Assembly: GCA_944368975.1 (NCBI GenBank)
Contig: CALVXI010000006.1
Span: 1 to 64,000 of the forward strand
Length of the DNA stretch: 64,000 nt
From: an uncultured Bacilli bacterium
GTDB lineage: Bacteria; Bacillota_I; Bacilli_A; RFN20; CAG-826
Reading direction: 5' to 3'
In this document: positions 122 through 52,474 of the stretch, one piece after another
Layout: the number at the start of each line of letters is the position of its first letter
Numbering within the stretch: the first letter of the stretch is position 1
Program-made: the position numbers and the translations under genes
The notes under the pieces: generated by a model
What the model was told of the DNA's origin: nothing
Seen by the model: the letters and a program-made list of their open reading frames with translations, nothing else
The model's database searches: none

Positions 122-1318
122 ATGAGTTACTATATCGAACAAATTGGTGAGAATGATTGTGGCATTGCATCTTTAAAAATGCTATTGGCAATATTATATA
201 AGAATAAAGACTTTCTTTATTATCCGCAAAAAGAAAGAAACATTTCTTATAATTATAAAGAATTAATGCAAATAGCATCTAAAGAAGGTGTTAATCTTGG
301 AGTGAGTAAAGTTGTTGATAAAAATGATATTTTTACTTATAAAGCAAAAAATCCATTTCTAATTTCCATTAAAGTGGAAAATTCTTTACATTTAGTATTA
401 GTCAAAAAGATTAAAAGAAATAAATTACTAATTTATGATCCAAAAAACGGAATTTATTGGTTAAAAAAAGAAGAATTAATAAATATTTGGAATGGTGACA
501 TAATTGAAGCAAATGAAATTAGAGGAAGTACTTTTAAAGCAAATAAAATTAATGTTTATCCTAAATCATTTATGTTCTTAACTATGATTTTTGAAATGTT
601 AAGTTTTCTAGCTTTATTTATGGCAATGTTTTTTGTAGACAAAGATTTTAGTTTTTTAATACCTTTAATTTTATTTGCTGTTTATATCATTTTTGAATTT
701 ATTTATCAAAAAATAATTGTATTAGCTTTAAAATATTTCGATAATACAATTTTGTATCGTAATTATCTTGATAATCGAAATAATTTTAAGGAATATTACC
801 TTGAAATGAACGATTATAAAACATTAATTATAAGTACTCCAATTAATTTTATTGCATCTTTAATGCTTATAATATTTGGATTAATAATTCTTGGTATGAA
901 TAATTACTTAAACGTTATTATTTTGATTATTGTATTTGCTATTCAAATAGGATTTAGGCTATTTGATAAAAAATATCTAAATAGAAAAAGAAGTAATTTA
1001 AAAAATATTGAGAAAAATTTATTTAATAATAAGCAATTAACAGAGCAAGAATTTAAGGAAAATATAAGTAATTTAAACGATGGAACATATAATTTTGTAA
1101 CATATGTCAATTTTAAGAAATATTTTTTAATTTTTATAACAATTGCTTTATGTTTGATATATTTAGGAATTACTGGTTTTGTTAGTTTGAATTTCTTGTT
1201 ATTTCATTTCTTTACTTATATTTTTCTTCAAGATCAATTCGATAAAATTTTAGATTTACAAAAAGGGTTCGAGAAAATAAAAACTTATAAATGTTTATAT
1301 CTATATTATTTTAAATAG
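122..1318 (+). CDS. C39 peptidase-membrane protein without ATPase domain
   Basis: The N-terminal ~110 residues match peptidase family C39, which removes double-glycine leaders from bacteriocins. Visible are the oxyanion Gln7, catalytic Cys13 in ENDCGIASL, His90 in SLHLVLV and Asp106 in IYDPKNG. About six hydrophobic helices follow (near residues 150-171, 177-198, 238-258, 263-281, 334-352 and 356-372), the number found in the membrane half of peptidase-containing ABC exporters. The protein ends at 398 residues with no Walker A or ABC signature, and no ATPase gene follows. An in-frame TTG at 101 exists, but ATG 122 has a ribosome binding site (AAAGGGGG) five bases upstream. It may be a degenerate exporter, a protease working with a separate ATPase, or an immunity-type protein. 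The C39 call is firm; the role is not known. Confidence 0.75.
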   Translation: MSYYIEQIGENDCGIASLKMLLAILYKNKDFLYYPQKERNISYNYKELMQIASKEGVNLGVSKVVDKNDIFTYKAKNPFLISIKVENSLHLVLVKKIKRNKLLIYDPKNGIYWLKKEELINIWNGDIIEANEIRGSTFKANKINVYPKSFMFLTMIFEMLSFLALFMAMFFVDKDFSFLIPLILFAVYIIFEFIYQKIIVLALKYFDNTILYRNYLDNRNNFKEYYLEMNDYKTLIISTPINFIASLMLIIFGLIILGMNNYLNVIILIIVFAIQIGFRLFDKKYLNRKRSNLKNIEKNLFNNKQLTEQEFKENISNLNDGTYNFVTYVNFKKYFLIFITIALCLIYLGITGFVSLNFLLFHFFTYIFLQDQFDKILDLQKGFEKIKTYKCLYLYYFK

Positions 1319-1344: not shown

Positions 1345-1785
1345 ATGGAATTTTATTTATCTAACGAACTAAATATTGATTTATCAAAGTTTGAAAAAAT
1401 TTATAATGATTTATTATTGACTACTTTAAAAGTCTTGAAAAAAGAATCAAATTATTTATTAAGTGTTACCTTTGTTTCAAAAGACAAAATACATGAAATT
1501 AATCGTGATTATCGAAATGTTGATCGACCAACTGATGTTATTTCTTTTGCCTTTTTAGATGACAAAAATGAGAAAATTTGCGGAGATATGCCAATTGATC
1601 TTGGTGAGATTTATATTTGCTATGATGTTGCTTTGGAAAATGCAAAAAAATATGGAAATTCAATAGAAAGAGAATTAAGCTTTCTTTTTGTACATGGTTT
1701 ACTTCATTTATTTGGTTATGATCACATGAATGAGGAAGAAGAAAAAGTTATGTTTAATTTACAAGATTTAATTTTGGAGAATTAA
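1345..1785 (+). CDS. ybeY: Endoribonuclease YbeY (rRNA maturation factor)
   Basis: Zinc-dependent single-strand endoribonuclease that takes part in 16S rRNA 3'-end maturation and ribosome quality control. The family signature HGLLHLFGYDH, with three zinc-binding histidines, is present near residues 116-126. The upstream half carries the conserved RxxDRPTDVISF element. At 146 residues it has normal length. It precedes cdd and era, as in Bacillus, where ybeY, cdd and era lie together. No ribosome binding site precedes the ATG; a -10 box six bases upstream suggests a leaderless message. Confidence 0.95.
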   Translation: MEFYLSNELNIDLSKFEKIYNDLLLTTLKVLKKESNYLLSVTFVSKDKIHEINRDYRNVDRPTDVISFAFLDDKNEKICGDMPIDLGEIYICYDVALENAKKYGNSIERELSFLFVHGLLHLFGYDHMNEEEEKVMFNLQDLILEN

Positions 1786-7034: not shown

Positions 7035-8303
7035 ATGGCTAATAAAAAAATTGAAAATGAAAATTCAGATATCGAAGTTTATGATGAAGACGATGAAGAA
7101 AGAGCTAGAGCACAGGCGATAGACAAAATAATTAAAGATTTTGAAAAGAAAGGGAAAAAAGATAAAGTCTTCAATCAAGATGAATTTCTTGATTTCGTTT
7201 CAAAGCTTGATATTACAGAAGATGAAATTGAGCACATAGCAGAGCACTTCAAAGATATAGGCTATAAAATTATTACAGATTATCCTGATGAAGATTTAAG
7301 CCAAGATTTAGACGATATTGAATTTAATGAAGCTAATTTTGAAAGTGAAGAAGACGATTTTGAAAACGATATTGATGAAGATTCTATCTCAGACGATGAA
7401 AAGGAATCGGTTGCAAATCTTGATGTTTCAAATTTAGATAATATTAACACTAACGATGTGAAAATTAATGATAGTGTTAAATCTTATCTTAAAGAAATAG
7501 GCCAATACCCATTATTAAGTGCTGAAGAAGAAAAAGAATTAGCAAAAAGGATTTTACAAGGAGATAAAGAGGCGCGTGATAAGTTAATTAATTCTAATTA
7601 TCGTTTAGTTGTGTCGATTGCTAAACATCGTATTGGAAGAGGTATGCCATTCTTAGATTTAATTTCAGAAGGCAATTTAGGATTAATGAAAGCTGTCAAA
7701 AAATTTGATTACACTAAAAATTTTAAATTTTCTACATATGCTACTTGGTGGATTAAACAAGCTATAAATCGTGCTATAGCAGATCAAGCGCGTACTATTC
7801 GTATTCCAGTACATATGGTCGAAACGATTAATAAAATTTCAAAAGTAAGTAGACAATTAGTTCAAAAACTTGGTAGAGAGCCTACTGCTGAAGAAATAAG
7901 CAATGAAATGAAAGATATTCCTGGAGATTTTAGCCCAGAAAAGATTAGAGAAATCCAGCGTATATCATCTGATCCTGTATCCTTAGAAACTCCTATTGGT
8001 GAAGAAGATGATTCAAAGCTTGGTGATTTCGTTGAAGATAAAGAAAGTATATCACCAACCGATTACACAACTAAATCAATGCTTAGAGCAAAATTGAATG
8101 AGGTTCTAAGTGAATTAACCGATAGGGAAGAAAGAGTACTCCGTTTACGCTATGGCTTAGATGATAATCGTCCTCGAACACTTGAAGAGGTCGGCAAAGA
8201 GTTTGGCGTTACGCGTGAAAGAATTCGTCAAATTGAAGCTAAGGCAATACGTAAATTGAAACATCCAAATCGTTTAAAAAAACTTGAAGATTATCGAGCA
8301 TAA
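7035..8303 (+). CDS. rpoD: Primary sigma factor RpoD/SigA, copy 1
   Basis: Housekeeping sigma-70 factor that directs RNA polymerase to -35/-10 promoters. After a very acidic N-terminal ~140 residues (region 1.1-like) come region 1.2 ([13 protein letters not shown]), region 2 with the -10-reading segment [17 protein letters not shown], region 3, and region 4.2 with the helix-turn-helix [19 protein letters not shown]. The start is set by AAAGGAGG upstream of ATG 7035. Its position after dnaG and before trmK matches Bacillus sigA, so this is probably the ancestral copy. A second, very similar gene lies at 9000-10256. Confidence 0.96.
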
Positions 8304-8999: not shown

Positions 9000-10256
9000 A
9001 TGGGTAATAAAAAAGTTGCTGATTTAGAAAATGATATTGAAATATTGGATGATGAAGATGTTGAAAAAGAACGTGAAGCTGCTATTGATAAAATAATTAA
9101 GAAATTTGAAGCAAAAGGAAAGAAAGATAAAACTTTTGACCAAGATGCCTTTTTAGACTTTATTTCTAGACTTGACATAACTGAAGATGAAATGGAAAGA
9201 ATAATTGAGCATTTTAAAAATATTGGTTACAAGGTTATTAATACTTTTTCTGATGATGATTCAAACGAGAATTTAGACAATATTGAATTTAATGAAAATA
9301 GTTTAGATGCTGAAGATGACTATGATGATTCAGACGAAATAAGCGATGATAATGATATTGATACTGCTGAATTAAACTATCCTAGTTCCTCAACTATAAA
9401 TACAAATGATGTTAAAATTTATGATAGCAACAAAGCCTATTTAAGAGATATTGGCCAATACCCATTATTAAGTGGAGAAGAAGAAAAGGAATTAGCTAAA
9501 AGAATTTTAAAAGGCGATAAAGTCGCTCGAGAAAAATTAATTAATTCGAATTATCGTTTAGTTGTATCAATTGCTAAGCATCGTACTGGAAGAGGATTAC
9601 CATTTGAAGATTTAATCGGAGAAGGCAATTTAGGACTAATTAAAGCTGTTGAAAAATTTGATTATACTAAAAATTTTAAATTTTCAACCTATGCAACATG
9701 GTGGATAAAACAAGCTATAAATCGTGCTATTGCTGATCAAGCAAGATTAATTCGAATTCCAGTACATATGGTGGAGACAATTAATAAAATTTCAAAAGTT
9801 AGTAGACAATTAGTTCAAAAACTTGGTAGAGAACCAACTGCTGAAGAAATTAGTGCTGAAATGAAAGATATTCCTGGAGATTTTTCACCTGAAAGAATTA
9901 GAAAAATACAATCAATGTCTGTCGAACCAGTCTCTTTAGAAACTCCTATTGGTGAAGAAGATGATTCCACTTTAGGAGATTTTGTTGAGGATAAAGAAAG
10001 TATTTCTCCAATTGAATACACTAATAAAAATATGGTTAATGAAAAGCTTAATGAAGTTCTTGGTGAACTTACTGATAGAGAGGAAAGAGTCCTTCGTTTA
10101 CGTTATGGTTTAGATGATAATCATCCTCGTACACTTGAAGAAGTTGGCAAAGAGTTTGGAGTAACACGCGAAAGAATTAGACAGATTGAAGTTAAAGCTA
10201 TAAAAAAATTAAAGCATCCTACTCGTAGAAAGAAATTAGAAGATTCTCTTGCATAA
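9000..10256 (+). CDS. rpoD: Primary sigma factor RpoD/SigA, copy 2
   Basis: A second full-length group 1 sigma factor (418 residues), paralogous to the gene at 7035. Region 2.4 ([12 protein letters not shown]) and the region 4.2 helix-turn-helix ([17 protein letters not shown]) are the same as in copy 1, so promoter recognition should be nearly identical. Differences concentrate in the acidic N-terminal third and in scattered surface residues (RMKSMS-type changes in region 3, C-terminal tail SLA against YRA). It has a very strong ribosome binding site (GGGGAGG), and the start-proximal bases TTTTGTTGTATG resemble those of copy 1. It separates trmK from yqfO, which are neighbours in Bacillus, so it is a local duplication. 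Confidence 0.94.
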
Positions 10257-48940: not shown

Positions 48941-48969
48941 ATATTACACAAAATAAATAATTTTGTCAA
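48941..48969 (-). promoter_or_regulatory. rplU operon promoter
   Basis: A consensus -35 TTGACA (48964-48969) and -10 TAATAT (48941-48946) are separated by exactly 17 bases. The -35 overlaps the TGA stop codon of radC. Confidence 0.8.
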
Positions 48970-49652
48970 TTAAGATTTAAGCATTTATGGTCGTAAAAAC
49001 TAAAATATTTTTCTTTTGAAATTATCAAGTGATCCAATAATTTTATTTGTCTCTTGTTTAATTCTTTTTCAAATAAATAAGTAAATTCAATATCAGCATT
49101 ACTAGGATAAATTTCATTATTTAAATGATTGTGAATTAATATCACTTTTGAAACATTCTTATTAAGTAAATTTAGTAATATTCTAAAATCAATAAGAAGT
49201 GTTTCTTCATTTAAGCTAATATAATTATGTTCATGAATTATTTCGCCACTTCTATTTAGTAATATAATTAGAAGCTGTTCTGATAACAAGTTATAAAAAT
49301 CATAAAAGTATGTATCAAAAACTAATTTAGAATCATAATTTTTTAATTTAAATGTTTTATTAAATAATTTTTGAAATCTCTTTGCTATTTCAAGCGAAGC
49401 AAGAACTTTTAAACTATTTACAGATCCAATCCCTTTAATTTTAGTTAAATCATATAAATTAGCATTCAACAAATCATTCTTAGTATTAAAAGAATTTATT
49501 AATTCTTGTGACACCTCGATTACATTTTTATTTTTAGTTCCACTTCCTAAAATAACCGCAAATAATTCTGATAACGTTAAACTATTTATTCCTTTTAAAA
49601 GGGCTTTTTCCCTTGGACAATCTTCACTCGGCAATTCTTTTATTTTTGGCAT
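48966..49652 (-). CDS. radC: RadC/JAB-domain protein
   Basis: Helix-hairpin-helix N-terminus (TLSELFAVILGSGTKNK, LTKIKGIGSVNSLKV) followed by an MPN/JAB metalloprotease-like domain. The metal motif is HNHLNNEIYPSNADIEFT near residues 172-189. It keeps His-x-His and Asp, but the usual HNHPSG reads HNHLNN. 228 residues is normal. Despite the name, a repair role is not established for the family. It follows the 61-residue peptide gene by eight bases without a clear ribosome binding site. Confidence 0.9.
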   Translation of the reverse strand: MPKIKELPSEDCPREKALLKGINSLTLSELFAVILGSGTKNKNVIEVSQELINSFNTKNDLLNANLYDLTKIKGIGSVNSLKVLASLEIAKRFQKLFNKTFKLKNYDSKLVFDTYFYDFYNLLSEQLLIILLNRSGEIIHEHNYISLNEETLLIDFRILLNLLNKNVSKVILIHNHLNNEIYPSNADIEFTYLFEKELNKRQIKLLDHLIISKEKYFSFYDHKCLNLN

Positions 49653-49660
49653 TCATTACA

Positions 49661-49846
49661 TTATTTCCATTGAAAACTCCATCCACCTGGAATGGTTGTT
49701 TTGCCTTCATTGCTTTTAAAGATTTTATAGACTAAAACAACAATGATTGCTGTAGCTAAAATCGTTAATACTGCTGTTAATGTAATTGGATCTGCACCAA
49801 CGTAAGTGTTCTCTAATTCATTTTCTTGAAGTGCAATTTTTCTCAT
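49661..49846 (-). CDS. Leader-type hydrophobic peptide, bacteriocin-like candidate
   Basis: A 61-residue peptide not recognised from a named family. The N-terminal 18 residues are charged, with ENELENTYVGA, like double-glycine-type leaders: Leu6, Glu10 and Leu11 spaced before Gly17-Ala18. A membrane-spanning stretch ILATAIIVVLVYKIF (about residues 29-43) and a basic, aromatic tail IPGGWSFQWK follow. The ribosome binding site GAGGAGG stands eight bases before the ATG, so it is clearly meant to be translated. Cleavage after Gly17 or Ala18 by a C39 peptidase is inference; a peptidase of that type is encoded at 122-1318. Alternatives: a small membrane protein or holin-like peptide. Confidence 0.6.
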   Translation of the reverse strand: MRKIALQENELENTYVGADPITLTAVLTILATAIIVVLVYKIFKSNEGKTTIPGGWSFQWK

Positions 49847-49897: not shown

Positions 49898-52474
49898 TTA
49901 AATTTTAGAAATTTTTTCTAAAATATCATTTAATTGATTTTTGTAATCAATATATTTTTGTTTTTCGAGTTCAATTTTTTCCTTTTTTGCTTTTTCTAAG
50001 AAGTTTTTATTGTTCAATAAATTTTCACTTCTTTTTACTTCGTTTAGCAATTTTTCTTTTTGTTCATTTAAACTCTTTAATAATTCATCTTTATTAATGT
50101 TATCTTTTATAAATAGAGTCCCATTAGTTAAAGAATATGTTGTTGAGTTTTCTTGATCTTCACTAATTAGACTAATTTCATTAGAGAATGTAAATCTCTT
50201 TAAATAATCCATTATTGAATTGATATCTAAAGTTGTTTTTATTGCTAATTCTAAACTTGCACTAGGCGAAATCTTATTTATTGACTTGTAATTACGTACT
50301 TTTTCAATAATTTGTGAAAGCATAGTGACAACTTCTAAATTATTAAAGCGATATTTTTTGTTGTATTCAGGATATGACTCAAGCATTATACTTTCTTTAT
50401 GTTCTGGTAAATTTAGATAAATTTCTTCACTTATAAATGGTGAAAATGGATATATCATCATCAATATTGCCTTTAAACAATAAAGTAATACGTTAAGTGT
50501 TTCTTCTTCTTTGTTTTGTAAAGAGACCTTAGACATCTCTAAATAGAAAGAGCAAAAATCATTATAAACAAAGTTGTACAATGTTGAGCTTGCTAGGCCA
50601 TAATCATATTTGTCCATTGCTTTAGTAATGACTTTAATGTTTTCTTCAAGTTTTGTAAGAATATATTTATCAAGGATATTAATTTTCTTTGTATTAATTT
50701 CACTAACTTTAAAATCACTAGGAATATTCATTAAAATAAATCTTGCACTATTCCAAATTTTATTTAAATAATTGCTAGCTTCAATTACTTTTTCTTCTTG
50801 ATATCTAAAATCAAAACCTGGTGATGCGGTTGTGGCTAAGAAATATCTAAGACTATCTATACCATATTTTTCAATTACATCTAATGGATCAATTCCATTT
50901 CCAGAAGATTTAGACATTTTACGTCCTTTTGAATCCCTTACTAAGCCATGAATAACTACATCTTTAAATGGGGCTTTATTAGTGAATTTTAAGCCTTGAA
51001 AATACATTCTAGAAACCCAGAAAAAGATAATATCATAGCCTGTAACCATTGTGTCAATTGGATAGTAACGCTCAAAATCTTCGGTATTTTCTGGCCATCC
51101 TAAAGTTGCAAATGGCCATAAAGCACTTGAAAACCATGTATCAAAAACATCTTCATCTTGATACCAATCACCACTATTATCAGGTAAATGGTCGGAAACT
51201 AGTATTTTTCCAGTAGATTTTTGGTAGTATACAGGAATTCTATGGCCCCACCATAATTGTCTTGAAATACACCAATCTTCACAATTTTCCATCCATCTAA
51301 TTAAAGTCTTTTCAAATCTTTTAGGAACGAAATTAACTTTTGACTTAGATTTTTGATTTTCTAAAAGTTTTTCAGTTAATGGTTTCATTTTAATGAACCA
51401 TTGTTTTGATAAAATTGGTTCTACTATAGTATCAGTTCTTTCACTATGTCCAACTTCATGTTTGAAATCTTCTATTTTAATTAAGTCGCCATTTTTTTCA
51501 ATATCTTTAACAAGAAGTTCGCGGCACTCAAAGCGATCTAAACCACCATACTTTTTTAAGGATTTAGACATTGTTCCATCTGTATTAATTACAATAGGCA
51601 TATCTAATCCATATTTTTTTCCTATAATAAAATCATTTGGGTCATGAGCTGGTGTACATTTCATGACACCTGTTCCAAAATTAATATCGACATATTCATC
51701 GCCAATCAAAGGAATAGCTTCGCCATTTGCAGGATTAATTACTTTTTTTCCAATAAATTTTTGATATCTTTCATCATTTGGATTAACTACAACACAAGTA
51801 TCACCGAACATTGTTTCAGGTCTAGTTGTTGCGACAGTTAAATATTCATCTTTATTATCTAAAAAACGATATTTAAAGTAATAGAATTTACCATCAATAT
51901 TTTTATGAATAACCTCAATATTACTTAAGGCTGTTTTCATTTTAACATCATAGTTTACAATTCTTTCACCTTGATATATTAATCCTTCATCATAAAGTGT
52001 TTTAAAAACATAATAAACGGCTTTGTTAAAACCTTCATCCATTGTAAATCTTTCACGAGTATAATCGAGCATTAAGCCCATTTTAGCCCATTGATCGTGA
52101 ATAATATGACTATATCTTTCCTTCCATTTAAAAGCTTCTTTTAAATATTCATCACGTCCAATTTCAAAGCGTGATATTCCTTTTTGTTTAAGTTCTTCAT
52201 CTACTTTAGCTTGTGTAGCAATTCCAGCATGATCTACGCCAGGAAGATATAAAACATCAAAGCCTTTTGCTTTCTTATAGCGACAAGTAATATCTTGAAT
52301 TGTATTGTCAATAGCATGACCAATATGTAATTTCCCAGTTACGTTTGGTGGAGGAATAACAACAGAAAATTTTTGCTTACTTTTATCTCCAGCAGTAAAA
52401 TATCCTTTATTTTTCCAATTTTGATATTTCCCTTCTTCAACTAATTTATGATCATATCTTTTAGCTAGTTCCAT
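49898..52474 (-). CDS. valS: Valyl-tRNA synthetase
   Basis: Class I synthetase. The HIGH motif is in PPPNVTGKLHIGHA near residue 42 and KMSKS in GRKMSKSSGNG near 524. The editing domain has ATTRPETMFGDT, and a C-terminal coiled coil (NEQKEKLLNEVKRSENLL) closes the protein. 858 residues is normal. It follows engB by two bases. Its stop codon is directly followed by six Cs. Confidence 0.97.
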   Translation of the reverse strand: MELAKRYDHKLVEEGKYQNWKNKGYFTAGDKSKQKFSVVIPPPNVTGKLHIGHAIDNTIQDITCRYKKAKGFDVLYLPGVDHAGIATQAKVDEELKQKGISRFEIGRDEYLKEAFKWKERYSHIIHDQWAKMGLMLDYTRERFTMDEGFNKAVYYVFKTLYDEGLIYQGERIVNYDVKMKTALSNIEVIHKNIDGKFYYFKYRFLDNKDEYLTVATTRPETMFGDTCVVVNPNDERYQKFIGKKVINPANGEAIPLIGDEYVDINFGTGVMKCTPAHDPNDFIIGKKYGLDMPIVINTDGTMSKSLKKYGGLDRFECRELLVKDIEKNGDLIKIEDFKHEVGHSERTDTIVEPILSKQWFIKMKPLTEKLLENQKSKSKVNFVPKRFEKTLIRWMENCEDWCISRQLWWGHRIPVYYQKSTGKILVSDHLPDNSGDWYQDEDVFDTWFSSALWPFATLGWPENTEDFERYYPIDTMVTGYDIIFFWVSRMYFQGLKFTNKAPFKDVVIHGLVRDSKGRKMSKSSGNGIDPLDVIEKYGIDSLRYFLATTASPGFDFRYQEEKVIEASNYLNKIWNSARFILMNIPSDFKVSEINTKKINILDKYILTKLEENIKVITKAMDKYDYGLASSTLYNFVYNDFCSFYLEMSKVSLQNKEEETLNVLLYCLKAILMMIYPFSPFISEEIYLNLPEHKESIMLESYPEYNKKYRFNNLEVVTMLSQIIEKVRNYKSINKISPSASLELAIKTTLDINSIMDYLKRFTFSNEISLISEDQENSTTYSLTNGTLFIKDNINKDELLKSLNEQKEKLLNEVKRSENLLNNKNFLEKAKKEKIELEKQKYIDYKNQLNDILEKISKI

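Follow-up and report, generated by a model that had tools for sequence, protein, structure and literature searches.

The 64,000-nucleotide stretch of an uncultured Bacilli bacterium analysed here (contig CALVXI010000006.1, positions 1 to 64,000; hereafter the window) carries, between valS and radC, a gene for a 61-residue peptide with a double-glycine (GG)-type leader. Our preferred interpretation, to which we assign a probability of about 0.72, is that the gene product is a precursor: a small conserved membrane protein whose leader would be trimmed by a dedicated cytosolic C39 peptidase without ATP-binding cassette (ABC) export. The gene of this peptidase lies next to ybeY, also within the window; the enzyme would act in the cytoplasm and cleave after Gly17, removing a leader of 17 residues. 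The 44-residue mature product, with one helix and a short basic aromatic hairpin, would remain in the membrane and probably serve an envelope machine as a subunit or as its regulator. The peptidase itself would derive from a bacteriocin-type C39-ABC exporter whose ATPase was lost in the window's order: a C39-ABC/GG-peptide pair would have turned to housekeeping, shed its transporter and retained its peptidase, and one lineage would have lost both leader and peptidase. The conserved gene pair, the catalytic triad, the loss of the ATPase and membrane domains, and the absence of leader and C39 protein from the same genomes are read from sequence comparisons, whereas cleavage of the precursor by the C39 protein, the exact bond and residence in the membrane are what we infer from them.

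The peptide gene, delimited by its homologues and by the valS-peptide-radC synteny, occupies positions 49661..49846 on the minus strand and translates to MRKIALQENELENTYVGADPITLTAVLTILATAIIVVLVYKIFKSNEGKTTIPGGWSFQWK (61 residues plus stop). It is a real gene, because a homologue in 54 of 59 relatives (best E values 6e-27, 1.6e-20 and 3.5e-18) places the open reading frame (ORF) far beyond chance. The Shine-Dalgarno (SD) sequence AGGAGG (49859-49854, minus strand) lies 7 nt before the ATG, and most homologues likewise have a strong SD. The next gene upstream, valS (49898..52474, from Pfam), and the next downstream, radC (48966..49652, Pfam UPF0758_N and RadC), are separated from the peptide gene by 51 and 8 nt, respectively. 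All three genes lie on the minus strand with these short gaps and therefore probably form one operon. The peptide has an acidic start and the pattern LxxxELxxxxxG, followed by a single hydrophobic helix, whose best 20-mer averages 2.6 in hydropathy, and by a basic aromatic tail. A preliminary description of the stretch had reported the 61-codon frame and its ribosome binding site, the charged start, single membrane helix and cationic aromatic GGW tail, and had remarked that such a gene is easily overlooked in a valS/radC housekeeping cluster; we agree on each of these points.

Comparison genomes are denoted below, where needed, by G numbers, their loci by L numbers and their families by f labels (f2, f4, f17, f20, f25). 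Homologues of the peptide were present in 43 of 44 near-complete genomes and in 24 of 28 genera. In a sample of the class, it occurred in all 39 members of the window's order and, outside that order, in two families, f20 and f25. The closest named relative, Candidatus Onthovivens merdipullorum, has a peptide with 75% identity. Nearly all homologues lie between valS and radC, or straight after valS where radC has left the locus, and the order as a whole keeps a single copy in conserved synteny. The ratio of nonsynonymous to synonymous substitution rates (dN/dS) was 0.11 over the six closest pairs (0.43 for the window's own pair), which indicates purifying selection. Leader columns of the alignment carried 2.21 bits and core columns 2.79 bits, and in 84% of pairs conservation was higher in the core than in the leader. 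The preliminary description had called for homologues with a conserved ORF, which were found in abundance, and for a conserved leader followed by a varying core, of which the reverse was seen. By these comparisons, the peptide gene is a core gene.

Many species of the window's genus have no radC at the locus, with the peptide still after valS (L003, L008, L011-L013, L015, L016, L020-L023, L025 and others), and two f20 genomes carry three tandem copies between valS and radC (L174 in G208 and L108 in G306). True absence of the peptide from G007, G028, G030, G051 and G016 was considered and rejected in favour of assembly gaps, as ValS or YbeY is missing too or lies at a contig end. In the reduced genomes G026 and G049, other genes come after valS; G026 has valS and ybeY with neither the peptide nor a C39 gene, and in G049 the peptide is lost and the C39 site holds only a diverged ORF.

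The leader, residues M1-G17, is encoded at 49796..49846 (minus strand), as delimited by the family alignment and position counts, with the predicted cut after G17. Recognition by C39 peptidases follows a rule of hydrophobic residues at positions -4, -7 and -12 (PMC10885120). Across 54 family sequences, Gly was found at -1 in 53, Glu at -8 in 49, Leu at -12 in 47 and Leu or Met at -7 in 39; position -4 was mostly Ile, Val or Leu, and position -2 was Gly in 23 and otherwise mostly Pro, Val or Cys, as is common in the window's genus. The family as a whole displays the double-glycine pattern recognised by C39 peptidases, with hydrophobic residues at -12, -7 and -4, Glu at -8 and Gly at -1. The window's own leader (L-12, E-8, L-7, T-4, V-2, G-1) follows it at -12, -7 and -1 and has Val where the classical motif has Gly at -2. 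This supports its assignment as a relaxed example of a C39-type leader, cut after G17. The preliminary description had recognised a leader of the double-glycine type, which matches the family, and had placed the cut at a 'GA' motif, which does not: cleavage after A18 would put E and Y at -7 and -4, contrary to the family register, in which the cut follows an xG at G17. Prepilin-like cleavage was set aside by reasoning from the residue at +1, which is acidic, and from the lack of a G-F-x-x-x-E pattern. Within the 64-kb window, no further GG-leader peptide was found.

The candidate processing enzyme is a C39 peptidase-membrane domain protein without a nucleotide-binding domain, encoded at 122..1318 on the plus strand (PF03412, E 2.9e-17). 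It lies beside ybeY (1345..1785, plus strand), which marks the C39 locus in nearly all peptide-bearing genomes examined. In most of the order's genomes, a PF03412 search recovered a single C39 protein, and 122..1318 was the only match in the window's genome. The codons of its catalytic triad (158..439, plus strand), Cys13 (158-160), His90 (389-391) and Asp106 (437-439), correspond to invariant columns: Cys, His and Asp were the only invariant columns among 19 diverse C39 family members, and in a further C39 check C13 and H90 were invariant and D106 nearly so. The protein gave no match to ABC_tran (PF00005) and no sequence match to PF00664, the exporter membrane domain, and a Walker A motif was found in none of 42 C39 proteins of the order. 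The best Protein Data Bank (PDB) matches of its AlphaFold2 (AF2) model (predicted local distance difference test score, pLDDT, 89.5) were PCAT1 chains, with a query TM-score (TMq) of about 0.65.

The C39 gene at the ybeY locus differs in extent between groups: in f20 it encodes an entire C39-ABC protein of about 680 residues, in the window's order a C39 and a membrane domain, and in f2 and f4 (both of the window's order) and in f25 the C39 domain alone, with about 110-170 residues. Along this series the protease persists, whereas the motor has been lost and, in some groups, the transporter as a whole. With the ATPase gone from the C39 protein, cleavage rather than ABC export would be the conserved step, and 122..1318 is probably the enzyme that processes the peptide. 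Among the papers searched, none mentions both ybeY and a C39 peptidase. The C39-ABC proteins of f20 (L122-L127, L134, L135) have a non-canonical ABC signature, LSxG versus LSGG (LSAGA, LSKGQ, LSLGQ, FSRGE), perhaps reflecting a weakened motor. The C39 frame of G006 (L075) contains one internal TGA, which may stem from decay of the gene, from recoding or from a mistake in the assembly.

A test of the link between leader and enzyme is offered by f25, where the peptide exists in two forms, 13 with a leader and 21 scored as leaderless. In the 17 leaderless peptides that were read, the ATG stands exactly at the expected mature start, each gene adjoins radC and nearly all have a good SD; four more, whose sequences were not read out, were scored as leaderless because the match covers the mature part only. 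A C39 profile search detected the enzyme in 12 of the 13 leadered genomes, with ybeY as its neighbour every time; the 21 leaderless genomes gave no match. The sole leadered genome without a match, G414, is an assembly in 430 contigs, and reading the space upstream of ybeY in G181 and G253 revealed no C39 gene there. The association between leader and C39 gave a Fisher p of 2e-8 by genome and 1e-4 by genus, from counts that are not independent because of kinship. Several independent leader losses had been suggested by a RadC tree with five changes. This was superseded by a longer concatenated tree with two, on which one leaderless clade was not rejected (approximately unbiased, AU, test p 0.27), and therefore only one or two events are claimed. 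The pattern is as would be expected if the leader existed only for the C39 peptidase and the mature part were the functional part.

The mature part, A18-K61 (49664..49795, minus strand), comprises a membrane helix at about residues 20-44 and a predicted beta-hairpin, KTTI-PGG-WSFQW (48-60). An AF2 model of the precursor (mean pLDDT 77) showed a short leader helix at 8-13, a long helix at 20-44 and a tail hairpin formed by 48-52 and 56-60. The tail is among the best conserved regions (GxxxLPGGFxFxW here versus GRISIPxxxxxEW in f20). The positive-inside rule places the positively charged flank of a membrane helix on the cytosolic side. The C-terminal flank was more positive than the mature N-flank in 48 of 54 sequences, which by this rule suggests a cytosolic tail; were the ancestral form exported, the tail would lie outside. 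Because the peptide locus runs on into mreC and mreD in f25 and f20, and in several genomes also into minC and minD, our guess from gene neighbourhood is an envelope or division role for the mature peptide.

The preliminary description had proposed an unmodified bacteriocin or a secreted signal. A class II-type bacteriocin, exported by the C39 transporter and killing neighbours, would fit the leader type and the helix with its basic aromatic tail, and the full C39-ABC protein is kept in f20. There are also sequence likenesses: 7 of 34 family members matched TIGR03949 (lactobin A/cerein 7B) weakly (best E 3.4e-5). The relatives' peptides gave only weak matches to curated bacteriocin families, with no family assignment, and the window's peptide had no match in Pfam and one irrelevant weak match in NCBIfam, with nothing above cut-off. 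We nevertheless consider a bacteriocin improbable. The gene is single-copy at one chromosomal site throughout the order, its core is more conserved than its leader and appears to be under purifying selection, and leaderless orthologues occupy the same site in C39-less genomes. No immunity-type gene was seen adjoining the peptide gene, whose neighbours are valS and radC, and the genome's sole C39 protein lacks an ATPase. The adjacent immunity and transport genes and variable core that characterise class II bacteriocins are not found at the valS/radC locus.

A secreted pheromone that C39 matures, a role suspected for the HetC substrate in Nostoc, is about equally improbable. Its conserved core would suit a species-independent signal, and C39 exporters act elsewhere in signalling and cell differentiation (PMC10986499), but no ATPase to power export was found anywhere in the order, the helix is strongly hydrophobic, no receptor or kinase gene was seen beside the peptide gene, and the leaderless forms would be without a known exit route. 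Slightly less likely still is an ordinary uncleaved small membrane protein, in which the leader-like start would be a chance likeness or a relic and C39 would have another substrate. The leader is indeed degraded at -2 in the window's genus and in some f25 genomes, and leaderless lineages manage with just the mature form; set against this, Gly stays at -1 in 53 of 54 sequences and Glu and Leu persist at -8 and -12, leader and C39 are missing together in f25, and the two genes are conserved jointly and in synteny. The preliminary description was thus correct in its reading of the leader and in pointing to an overlooked gene, and was probably wrong about its use: a single-copy syntenic gene with a conserved core, no immunity-type gene in view and a C39 protein without ATPase points to neither a bacteriocin nor a secreted signal.

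Several points weigh against a leader trimmed by a dedicated C39 peptidase. Cleavage of the precursor by C39 is argued from joint presence and absence, and the loss of leader and C39 may have been a single event. The window's own residues at -2 (V) and -4 (T) deviate from the classical motif. In f20 the ATPase domain is retained and ABC export may be real; a second C39 substrate may be encoded elsewhere in the genome; and the peptide may end up somewhere other than the membrane. The wider proposition is put forward only tentatively: C39 peptidases would have been domesticated as cytosolic enzymes devoted to processing a core membrane protein, whose leader would prevent its insertion, or recruit it, until the peptidase takes the leader off.

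Other GG systems were seen among the comparison genomes. In f17 (L129, L130, L141, L171, L172, L173), a single full C39-ABC gene is accompanied by one or two adjacent small GG-leader peptides with other cores, ending in sequences such as RPLKCHS, HPKSCEN and IRRIAEGNICPLK; in L171-L173, the C39-ABC gene lies some 4-6 kb from ybeY. This pair may be another housekeeping GG system. Loci L138, L139 and L140 (G032, G029 and G118) have a distinct PCAT-type cluster that encodes another large protein as well, likely a modified-peptide cluster, and L139 and L140 also have a small GG-leader peptide. Elsewhere in the window, two closely similar primary sigma factor (rpoD-like) genes are adjacent at 7035-8303 and 9000-10256.

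Genome mining files GG-leader peptides found with a C39 protein as bacteriocins; the pair described here has the look of a conserved housekeeping system. If correct, this would warn against systematic misannotation of GG-leader/C39 pairs and would add a route of membrane-protein maturation independent of both signal peptidase and prepilin peptidase. The small protein family, spread over gut orders of Bacilli, would then have a role testable via its peptidase.

Among known systems, class II bacteriocin precursors (TIGR03949 lactobin A/cerein 7B; PF10439) resemble the peptide in leader pattern, size and a membrane helix after the cut, whereas the peptide is a chromosomal core gene at one syntenic place with a conserved core and has no immunity-type gene or linked functional transporter. 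The peptidase-containing ABC transporters (PCATs) PCAT1, ComA and LahT share the C39 Cys/His/Asp triad and an exporter-type membrane domain; the 122..1318 protein has the triad and, by its structural model, such a membrane domain. It differs from them in that the nucleotide-binding domain is missing in the window's order, only the C39 domain is left in f2, f4 and f25, and the C39 gene does not adjoin that of its presumed substrate. HetC of Nostoc, whose substrate is not known, is a comparable C39 exporter in a developmental, non-antimicrobial role (PMC10986499). PoyH, a C1A cysteine protease free of any transporter domain, likewise cleaves a leader of the GG type (PMC10885120), but belongs to another protease family and acts within a natural-product cluster. 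CydX, although it has no cleaved leader, is a single-helix small membrane protein like the predicted mature peptide and resembles it in size and stable conservation.
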